Below, one piece after another: positions 2,138 through 31,445 of a stretch of 33,968 bases of DNA. The position numbers and the translations under genes were made by a program. The notes under the pieces were generated by a model. The model worked only from the letters and a program-made list of their open reading frames with translations. It ran no database searches and was not told the origin of the DNA. The stretch spans positions 1 through 33,968 of the forward strand of contig JAFGPN010000014.1 of assembly GCA_016936175.1 (NCBI GenBank), given 5' to 3'. Every line of letters starts with the position of its first letter. Within the stretch, counting starts at the first letter, position 1. This DNA comes from Patescibacteria group bacterium (GTDB lineage: Bacteria; Patescibacteriota; Kazan-3B-28; UBA10110).

Positions 2138-3031
2138 ATGTATCAACAGATTGCCAACAACAAACGCAAGACAGTTTTGCTGATGGTGCTATTTTTTGTG
2201 TTAATTGTTGCCATCGGGTACGCTCTAGCGATTTACTATAACGACCAGGGGATTTTGGTAATCGCCTTAATCGTTAGCCTGGCAAGCAATGGGGTAAGTT
2301 ATTGGTGGGGGGATAAGGCTATTCTGGGACTTTCGGGGGCAAGACCACTTGATCATAATCGAGACCTGAGAGAGCGTCAGGTCTACCATCTAGTAGAGAA
2401 TCTATGCATTACTGCGGGTACACCAATGCCGAAGGTGTTTATTATTAATGACCCGGCTCCGAACGCTTTTGCTACCGGCCGTGACCCCAAACATGCTAGC
2501 ATTGCTCTGACCACCGGTTTGATTGAGAAGTTAAATAAAGCCGAATTGGAGGGTGTGATTGCCCACGAATTATCGCATGTGCGTAACTACGACATTCTGT
2601 TAGCCACGGTGGTTATTACACTGCTGGGCTTAGTAGTAATGGTATCGGATTGGACACTGCGGTCGCGCTGGTATGGCAGGGGACACAGTAATCAAAACAG
2701 CCGAGGTGGCAACGGATTAGCAATTGTCAGATTAGTTTTGATTATCTTGTCACCAATCTTGGCTCGATTAATTTATTTTGCAATATCACGCAAACGAGAA
2801 TATCTGGCTGATGCCTCGGGCGCCTTAATCACGCGCTATCCAGAGGGGTTGGCTAGTGCTTTGCAGAAAATCAGCTCTGACAATAACAAATTAAGGGTAG
2901 CCAGTAGCGCTACTGCCGGTTTGTATATCGTTAATCCATTTAAAAAAACCAACGAGGTAATCTCCGAATTATTTTCTACTCATCCGCCGATTGCCAAAAG
3001 AGTCGCGGCGCTTAATAATATGAATATATGA
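2138..3031 (+). CDS. htpX: HtpX-like M48 family zinc metalloprotease
   Basis: VIAHELSHVRNYD (HExxH), SRKREYLADASGA, four hydrophobic segments; stop TGA at 3029-3031. Confidence 0.9.
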   Translation: MYQQIANNKRKTVLLMVLFFVLIVAIGYALAIYYNDQGILVIALIVSLASNGVSYWWGDKAILGLSGARPLDHNRDLRERQVYHLVENLCITAGTPMPKVFIINDPAPNAFATGRDPKHASIALTTGLIEKLNKAELEGVIAHELSHVRNYDILLATVVITLLGLVVMVSDWTLRSRWYGRGHSNQNSRGGNGLAIVRLVLIILSPILARLIYFAISRKREYLADASGALITRYPEGLASALQKISSDNNKLRVASSATAGLYIVNPFKKTNEVISELFSTHPPIAKRVAALNNMNI

Positions 3032-3032
3032 G

Positions 3033-3167
3033 CCCCGTTAGAAACTCGCGGTAAAAAATAATTGATTTCACAATTATTTTTTACGACTCACTAACCAATC
3101 GATTATGTTATACGATAATTTTTTAGCGATTAGTCCGATGAATCATATTGATAAGCTTTTAATGGGG
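3033..3167. mobile_element. MITE-like element E1 (135 bp), TIR CCCCGTTAGAAACT / AGCTTTTAATGGGG, TSD TGAG
   Basis: Terminal inverted repeats match 11/14; flanked by TGAG at 3029-3032 and 3168-3171; contains 14-bp perfect hairpin 3051-3064/3071-3084; homologous in layout and length to E3 (reverse orientation). Confidence 0.8.
3051..3084. repeat. Perfect AT-rich hairpin inside E1
   Basis: gtaaaaaataattg-atttca-caattattttttac, 14-bp perfect stem. Confidence 0.9.
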
Positions 3168-4009
3168 TGAGAAAAACATTTTCTCATCTATCAAAAATAT
3201 TGCCCCTCGGACTGGGGGCTCTGTTGCTATCTGCAGCGGGTTGCGGAAGTCAGCCGGTTAGTATTAGTCAGGTGGCGATAGCCACTCAGATTAATACCGA
3301 TAACAGCCCGGTTTACGATTCGCAGATTAACGTTCTGTCCACTACCCCCACTATTTATCTCTGTGCAGAAGTGGTCGGTGCTCGTGAGGGGACGGCAGTT
3401 GATGTTGAGTGGCGATATCTAACCGGAGACCGCTTAATCAGTACCGAGGCCTTTCGGGGTAATCGGAGCGAAGATACCCCACGCGAGTTTATTACCGGGG
3501 TAGCCCCGGCTACTAGCTGGATCTCGTCCCACATTACCCTAAGCAGTCTAAGCTGGTCGATGGGGTCATATGAGGCGATTGTTAGACTAAACGGCCAGGA
3601 GGTGAAACGAGCCAGCTTCAATATTGTCGGTAGCCAAGAGTTTGACGAGCTTTCCAAAAAAGCCTTAGTGGAGACGGTTTATTTGGGTAGTAAGATTAAT
3701 GACCAGAGCCAGATAACTATCCCAGGGACCAGATTCGGTCGCTCTCAGGAGAAGATATATGCCGTAGTTCTCCTAAAAGATGCCCCGGCAGGGACAGGGG
3801 TAAGGGCGGTTTGGGAGCAGCTTGAGACTCGCAAGCAGATAAGCGCTTTTAACACCACTTTCTCTGGAAGCGGCTATCTGCCGTTTGACATCTCCTTAAG
3901 CCTCCTGGGCAAGAGCTGGCCCGATAGGTTATGGCCGGCCGGAAACTACAGTGTTTCTATCTATGTGGATAAGGTCTTGGTTACCACCAAAAACTTCTCG
4001 ATTAGTTAG
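3167..4009 (+). CDS. Exported (possibly lipo-) protein with two tandem beta-rich domains
   Basis: Signal sequence KILPLGLGALLLSAAGCGS; the two halves share pattern IY....A..GT.V...W......IS...F ... SL..W....Y...I...G..V....F.I; GTG start overlaps the E1 right terminus. Confidence 0.7.
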   Translation: MRKTFSHLSKILPLGLGALLLSAAGCGSQPVSISQVAIATQINTDNSPVYDSQINVLSTTPTIYLCAEVVGAREGTAVDVEWRYLTGDRLISTEAFRGNRSEDTPREFITGVAPATSWISSHITLSSLSWSMGSYEAIVRLNGQEVKRASFNIVGSQEFDELSKKALVETVYLGSKINDQSQITIPGTRFGRSQEKIYAVVLLKDAPAGTGVRAVWEQLETRKQISAFNTTFSGSGYLPFDISLSLLGKSWPDRLWPAGNYSVSIYVDKVLVTTKNFSIS

Positions 4010-11445: not shown

Positions 11446-11449
11446 TTTG

Positions 11450-11566
11450 ACCCCGTTAGAAGTCCAACAGAGTTACGCACTTCTCCTCGGGGTAGAGTTG
11501 AGCGAACAGCGCTCCGCTTAGTTTTTAGCCCATCGGTTACTTGTCCGGGTAAACTTCTAACGGGGT
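11450..11566. mobile_element. MITE-like element E2 (core 11451-11565), TIR ACCCCGTTAGAAGT / ACTTCTAACGGGGT, TSD TTGA
   Basis: 14-bp perfect terminal inverted repeat (11450-11463 / 11553-11566); TTGA at 11447-11450 and 11566-11569 flanks CCCC...GGGG. Confidence 0.8.
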
Positions 11567-11595
11567 TGACAGAGTCAGGTGATAAGAGCTTAAAT
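11566..11595 (+). promoter_or_regulatory. Candidate promoter for rpsL-rpsG-fusA abutting E2
   Basis: TTGACA 11566-11571, 18-nt spacer, TTAAAT 11590-11595. Confidence 0.5.
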
Positions 11596-22636: not shown

Positions 22637-22771
22637 CCCCATTAGAAATCTGTCACTACCCACATCTAACCACTACCTAAAGATTCCAACCATGTTATGC
22701 CACAATATACTAATCAGAGCGCGCAAAAATAATTCATTTTAATTATTTTTCGCCGAGGATTTCTAACAGGG
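22637..22771. mobile_element. MITE-like element E3 (135 bp, inverted relative to E1), TIR CCCCATTAGAAATC / GATTTCTAACAGGG, TSD TAGG/TAAG
   Basis: TIR match 12/14; same length as E1; reverse complement carries the same aaaaataatt-N6-aattattttt hairpin at the same distance from the terminus; flanks TAGG (22633-22636) and TAAG (22772-22775). Confidence 0.75.
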
Positions 22772-23735: not shown

Positions 23736-24083
23736 ATGAGTAGACTAACCAAACAACAATCCAGGGTAAAACGTCATCGGCATGTCCGAGTGAAGATTAA
23801 AGGCACGACCAAGAGGCCCAGATTAGCGGTCTATCGCAGCCTTAAACACATTCATGCGCAGATAATTGACGATACGGTTGGTCGCACTCTGATTAGCTCC
23901 TCGACAGCCAAACTAAAGCTGACCGGTACGGTAAGTGGAGCCGCTAAAGTAGGTGAGGCGATTGGAAAATTAGCTCAGGATTTGAAAATAACAGAAGTAG
24001 TATTTGACCGTGGTGGATATAAATATCATGGCCAGGTTAAGGCCGTGGCCGAAGGAGCCAGATCAGCCGGATTAAAGTTATAA
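23736..24083 (+). CDS. rplR: 50S ribosomal protein L18
   Basis: [37 protein letters not shown]...[26 protein letters not shown]. Confidence 0.97.
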
Positions 24084-27996: not shown

Positions 27997-28110
27997 ATGA
28001 AAGTTAGAGCCTCAGTCAAAAAGATGTGCAAGAACTGCCGGGTTATCCGACGCAAGCGTCGGGTGCGAATCATCTGTACCAATCCTAAACATAAGCAAGC
28101 ACAAGGTTAA
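27997..28110 (+). CDS. rpmJ: 50S ribosomal protein L36 (absent from ORF track because it is 37 aa)
   Basis: [37 protein letters not shown], CxxC...C....H Zn pattern; ends overlapping the rpsM ATG. Confidence 0.96.
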
Positions 28111-31010: not shown

Positions 31011-31445
31011 ATGAAGAAGACTACCCGAAGACCAAAACCAGCAGAGATTAAGGAGATTTGGCATCTTATCGATGCTAAGGGGTTAGTGTTGGGTAGGTTA
31101 TCTACCAAGATTGCCAACATATTGATGGGCAAAAACACACCGATGTTTGATCCAGCGATTACCCCTAAAACCAAGGTGGTGGTAATTAATGCTAACGATA
31201 TTAAACTCACCGGACGTAAGCTAGAGCAGAAAGAACATATTCGTTACAGCGGATATCCCGGGGGGCTCAGTCGAATCCCGATGGCTCGGATAATGGCAGA
31301 AAAATCACCCGAGGCGTTACGGCATGCAGTCTACGGGATGTTGCCCAAAAATCGCTTACGCAAAGGTCGGATGGATAATCTAAAAATTTATGCCACCGAG
31401 GCGCATCCTCATCAGGCCCAGAACCCAATTAAGTTAGAATTATAA
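31011..31445 (+). CDS. rplM: 50S ribosomal protein L13
   Basis: [34 protein letters not shown]...[27 protein letters not shown]. Confidence 0.97.

Follow-up and report, generated by a model that had tools for sequence, protein, structure and literature searches.

The junction between htpX and an exported-protein gene in a Patescibacteria group bacterium (Kazan-3B-28; UBA10110) carries a 135 bp sequence, E1, that very probably is a non-autonomous mobile element with terminal inverted repeats (TIRs), inserted within a start codon. The junction lies in a 33,968 nt stretch (assembly GCA_016936175.1, contig JAFGPN010000014.1, positions 1 to 33,968 of the forward strand), hereafter the window, whose genome is designated G000. 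According to the same reading, E1 belongs to a family that targets R|TGNN (the bar marks the insertion point), and a longer form encoding a GIY-YIG nuclease is its partner.

E1 (3033..3167, + strand) resembles a miniature inverted-repeat transposable element (MITE). It has CCCC...GGGG ends and TIRs CCCCGTTAGAAAC and GCTTTTAATGGGG, which pair with each other (3033..3048, +, and 3152..3167, -), and it is flanked by a 4 bp target duplication, TGAG, at 3029..3032 (+) and 3168..3171 (+). The left copy follows an A at 3028, giving the former ATGAG, and the right copy is followed by AAAAAC. Upstream, htpX (M48 peptidase; 2138..3031, +) ends AAT ATA TGA, with its stop TGA (3029-3031) inside the left duplication; its product matches Pfam Peptidase_M48 (E 2e-33) and NCBIfam HtpX (E 9e-101, slightly under the model cut-off). 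Downstream, the gene for a 280 aa exported protein (3167..4009, +) opens GTG AGA AAA ACA at 3167. As the initial annotation had proposed, the first base of this GTG is the terminal G of E1, with TG supplied by the right TGAG. Its removal arithmetic is likewise correct: deletion in silico of E1 and one TGAG yields AATATATGAGAAAAAC, where an ATG, in frame with the downstream gene, overlaps the htpX TGA as ATGA. On this evidence, E1 entered between bases 1 and 2 of the exported-protein start (A|TGAG), inside the ATGA overlap, with duplication of TGAG. The left TGAG retained the htpX stop, while the right TGAG and the terminal G together formed a GTG that keeps the former reading frame. Both the insertion and the rebuilding of the start codon are well supported by comparison of sequences.

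GTG 3167 is probably the start in use. No in-frame ATG, GTG, or TTG is present upstream of it as far as the nearest stop. Initiation at GTG gives the N-terminus MRKTF..LLLSAAGC, a complete signal peptide with a lipobox-like LSAAGC, similar in length to that of the ATG-started homologues in two related genomes, G002 and G003 (Pfam and NCBIfam searches with the protein returned no match). If translation instead began at an internal codon, E1 would merely lie upstream of the gene; consistent with this, GTG initiates less strongly than ATG and no Shine-Dalgarno-like motif precedes 3167. However, because such motifs occur in only ~20% of the genes of this genome, their absence here is not telling, and the complete signal peptide, its length, and a start register that is identical across many copies of the family make an internal start most improbable.

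Homologues of the exported protein were detected in all eight of the nearest genomes. In four of these, G003 (GTATGAAGTTGGG), G002 (GTATGAATAAG), G005 (CTATGAGCCACAAC), and G006 (CTATGAAATTC), the two genes overlap by ATGA and no element is present. Since the overlap extends to two further genera within the family and to two within the order, by parsimony it is most likely the ancestral state, which E1 split, in agreement with the initial annotation. A separate element is present at the junction in G004, ~10 bp upstream of the site of E1, with the right end TTTCTAACGGGG|TAAATCTATGACC.

Filled and empty sites were also found at other genes of G000 and of a member of the same genus, Kazan bacterium RIFCSPLOWO2_01_FULL_48_13 (G001). 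The change from ATG to GTG that had been suggested for E1 recurs at G000 C1:33357, which is filled and reads GTG AGC ATT AAA, whereas the empty site in G001 reads ATG AGC ATT AAA. Three further starts within the window are empty targets that are filled in G001: rplR (23736..23739, +; ATGGG[element]TGGG), rplM (31011..31014, +; ATGAA[element]TGAA), and rpmJ (27997..28000, +; ATGAA[element]TGAA). Similarly, gatC is empty in G000 (TATATATAATGAAACTT) and filled in G001 (TATATATAATGAA[TCCC..GGGA]TGAAACTT). At the starts of nrdR and of genes of 193, 475, and 398 aa, G000 and G001, two species of one genus, carry different elements, a pattern that would fit repeated use of a start codon or exchange of one element for another; the 398 aa gene has a nuclease-bearing form in G000 and a short form in G001. 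Different elements also occupy one start codon at G000 C15:15047-15125 and G001 C9:31935-32066.

Reading through every contig of G000 and 760 kb of G001 gave a catalogue of 94 family copies with TIRs CCCCRTTAGAA; exact CCCYRTTAGAA ends number 35 in G000, against a single control match. Perfect 4 bp target duplications flank 47 of the 94 copies (0.4 expected), and the duplication at E1 is therefore not due to chance. The duplications are mostly TTGA/TCAA, TGAA/TTCA, TAAA/TTTA, and TATA, with TGAG, TGGG, and TGGA at starts. Two copies besides E1 lie in the window. E2, after rpsN (22637..22771, -), is of the same sub-family as E1 in the opposite orientation; it sits at the rpsN stop codon with flanks TAGG/TAAG, and in G001 the orthologous copy is flanked by a perfect duplication, TAAG. 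E3, after rpoC (11451..11565, +; duplication TTGA at 11447-11450 and 11566-11569), is from a sub-family with TNNA targets and is not at a start codon. Separately, a pair of ends ~4 kb apart in G014 C51 was rejected as an element, as pheS/pheT lie in between.

Start codons are strongly over-represented among the insertion sites. Counting only open reading frames (ORFs) of at least 60 aa whose start coincides with an element end, the end supplies base 1 of the start in 16 of 42 and 22 of 50 copies (~40%), and start codons make up 0.9% and 0.8% of non-coding positions (binomial 2e-22 and 5e-33, respectively). Start codons hold every one of the 16 copies whose duplication is R|TGNN: 14 belong to called ORFs of 60 aa or more, one to rpmJ, and one to a G001 gene at C4:34706 with a broken-looking frame. 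None of the 30 copies with other duplications lies at a start. The interior of E1 clusters with those of 25 other copies from G000 and G001, in both orientations, and 22 of these 26, as counted here, are at start codons. The filled and empty pairs at gatC, rplM, rplR, and rpmJ show an insertion rule, R|TGNN to RTGNN[YCCC...GGGR]TGNN, by which the last base of the element restores ATG or makes GTG. Because YCCC/GGGR ends return ATG or GTG in either orientation, R|TGNN starts are used repeatedly. The initial annotation, which was concerned with E1, understated the case: rebuilding of the start codon is the rule of the whole element family.

The excess at start codons also bears on whether these are ordinary MITEs that do not truly target start codons, which would merely be harmless insertion sites. 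The target consensus TNNA covers TGAA, and with elements ending in G or A an insertion at RTGAA would be neutral; additionally, many of the TNNA copies are intergenic. However, sites that make up ~0.9% of non-coding positions hold ~40% of the copies. Furthermore, three copies interrupt a tRNA-Met(CAU) or tRNA-Val(CAC) gene within its anticodon loop, at a point where A|TGA or G|TGA is read on the opposite strand; each of the three also carries an intact copy of the tRNA that it breaks. These insertions support a target at the DNA level over selection for harmless sites alone, and we consider the ordinary-MITE explanation rather unlikely. Elements enclosing an intact tRNA-Met(CAU) or tRNA-Val(CAC) were noted at G000 C18:50210-50323 and C12:16654-16777, G001 C4:123980-124093, and G127 C2:123993-124108; those of G000 and G001 are the three anticodon-loop insertions.

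The same sequences could instead be cis-regulatory RNA leaders, in which a hairpin holds the start codon, rather than transposon insertions. E1 contains an AT-rich internal hairpin (3051..3084, +), a self-complementary match common to related copies, and its predicted RNA folding is strong (z-score -4.5 for 3010-3190). In the 79 nt F1 sub-family the interior is conserved, all 11 clustered copies are at a start codon, and these often lie ~10 bp after a TATAAT box; the CYNG left flanks described below could also lengthen a stem across the start codon. In contrast, a leader does not account for empty orthologous sites, 4 bp duplications, or one interior occurring in both orientations, nor for copies inside anticodon loops and unlike interiors at one start codon in sister genomes. 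No Rfam family, including intron families, matched the elements (the window at the gathering cut-off, and eight element loci at E 0.5). An origin as RNA leaders is thus improbable, and insertion of a mobile element into the start codon remains the preferred reading.

Longer copies of ~263-310 bp contain a single GIY-YIG nuclease ORF; those of ~263-287 bp have it between the repeats of the short copies. Two of the element-borne ORFs match Pfam PF01541 (E 3e-16 and 1e-13). These copies have the same ends as the short ones, as an autonomous partner would, and encode a GIY-YIG protein rather than a known transposase. Y1_Tnp, DDE_Tnp_1, and rve domains (PF01797, PF01609, and PF00665) were absent from G000, G001, and G004; other transposase families were not searched. 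A scan with a single protein as query matched solely G001. When the spacing pattern of the GIY-YIG element was searched in 380 genomes of the phylum, it was found in 13, compared with none for the reversed pattern. Reading of these 13 genomes identified GIY-YIG elements in ten genera, ten elements in all, of which nine lie at a start codon; perfect duplications (ATGAA..TGAA or TATG..TATG) flank several. Short elements are likewise present outside the genus: an exact-core search, in which no start codon was required, yielded 51 in eight genomes, and RTG is present at an end of the majority.

The reading frames of the longer form are themselves tied to the target. In G158 and G001, the element ORF begins on the ATG of the target (MSPVR...). 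Several element ORFs end CTA ACG GGR TGA, with the stop TGA overlapping the restored start and rebuilding ATGA or GTGA. Some ORFs do both, opening on the target ATG and closing with the TGA that forms part of the restored ATGA, which keeps an operon readable. In E1, the former start codon now opens an eight-residue ORF, MSPVRNSR (3028..3054, +), that matches the opening of the G001 and G158 GIY-YIG ORFs in identical register and, judging by this match, is a remnant of an ORF that started on the target ATG.

The GIY-YIG nuclease would cut the RTGA target and mobilise the short copies in trans. Taken together, these features could define a new minimal class of transposable element in Patescibacteria: one nuclease of ~85-95 aa between TIRs, which cuts R|TGA, generates a 4 bp duplication whose two copies provide its own start and stop, restores the host start, and moves short copies such as E1 in trans. 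The chances that such a class exists in this form appear evenly balanced.

Several observations weigh against insertion of E1 into a start codon as part of a family with a GIY-YIG partner. The initial annotation had predicted that relatives without E1 would carry the ATGA overlap, and had regarded a relative lacking both as contrary evidence. The four overlapping junctions bear out the prediction, but G001, despite being of the same genus, is literally a relative with neither element nor overlap; its htpX end is longer and the downstream start is separate. The E1 repeats are complementary at just 11 of 16 positions, which makes E1 an old copy, perhaps one no longer able to move. An 11-copy sub-family, F4, has TNNA duplications and no copies at start codons (0/11), and most GIY-YIG ORFs of these genomes lie outside these repeats. 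Finally, ~20 copies in G000 and G001 have a left flank R|CYNG...TG, unlike a simple target duplication. These flanks (CTTG, CCTG, CTCG), e.g. at C15:21-99, C15:62249-62378, and C3:1734-1860 (-), place four extra bases between R and the element; that they are decayed duplications was rejected, as CYNG comes on top of the sequence seen in the tRNA and at empty sites.

Other repeats were encountered in these genomes. In G001, a second family of repeats (CCCCGTAGA..., CCCCGTAGARGAATTTAG) is also located at start codons and includes a GIY-YIG form, with sites at C1:52228-52362, C1:108035-108178, C1:115763-115907, and C6:879-1188; its 60-70 bp copies are intergenic with TCAA/TTGA duplications. GIY-YIG ORFs with other inverted repeats (GTCATTCCCGCG..., TGTCATTCTGAG...) occur at G000 C1:21440-21661 and C2:10207-10428 and are perhaps further element types. 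In G098 (C24 and C18) and G030 (C1), the end motif is present at many sites as a 29 bp palindrome with a 7 bp loop, perhaps a minimal form. A cobalamin riboswitch-like match in G000 C14 (locus L035:1532-1700, -) scored 25.2 bits, under the gathering score.

Elements of this kind show how mobile DNA can persist in a gene-dense, reduced genome: it lands in start codons, even where genes overlap, and hands the start back. They account for GTG/ATG differences between orthologs and, in ribosomal-protein operons and others of Patescibacteria, for insertions upstream of genes, and they suggest a likely role for a part, at least, of the numerous small GIY-YIG proteins in this phylum. The literature searched, which included few subscription journals and no preprints, contained no account of an element that rebuilds start codons, nor of one with repeats and duplications whose sole gene is a GIY-YIG ORF.

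Among known systems, Rickettsia palindromic elements are small repeats that insert into genes and leave them readable. They are translated inside the ORF, whereas the E1 family rebuilds the start codon and stays outside the downstream protein. GIY-YIG homing endonucleases of the I-TevI and I-BmoI type share with the longer form a catalytic domain and a small mobile nuclease gene. However, homing genes reside in introns or are free-standing, occupy one allelic site, and lack TIRs and target duplications, whereas the E1 family has both and occupies many sites. Bacterial MITEs, reviewed in PMC10969869 and exemplified by MITEAba12 (PMC6382973), are similarly short, ORF-less, and multicopy, with TIRs, short target duplications, and both orientations; the E1 family shows the TIRs, target site duplication, and empty orthologous sites by which MITEs are recognised. 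In contrast to such MITEs, it enters between bases 1 and 2 of the start codon and rebuilds it, and its partner has a GIY-YIG ORF and no recognised transposase. Repetitive extragenic palindromic (REP) sequences and REPINs (PMC2817692, PMC3116915) are also small palindromic mobile repeats tied to a single-copy nuclease gene, the REP-associated tyrosine transposase (RAYT). RAYTs are Y1 transposases, a domain absent from G000 and G001. A survey of insertions in rRNA genes of the candidate phyla radiation (CPR) reports some that encode GIY-YIG proteins and differ from introns of both group I and group II, together with many uncharacterised ORF-less ones, mostly below 200 bp (PMC11270868). Both these insertions and the E1 family occur in Patescibacteria in GIY-YIG and short forms, the former in rRNA genes; the two may be related, and the uncharacterised CPR insertions may find their explanation in E1-type elements.
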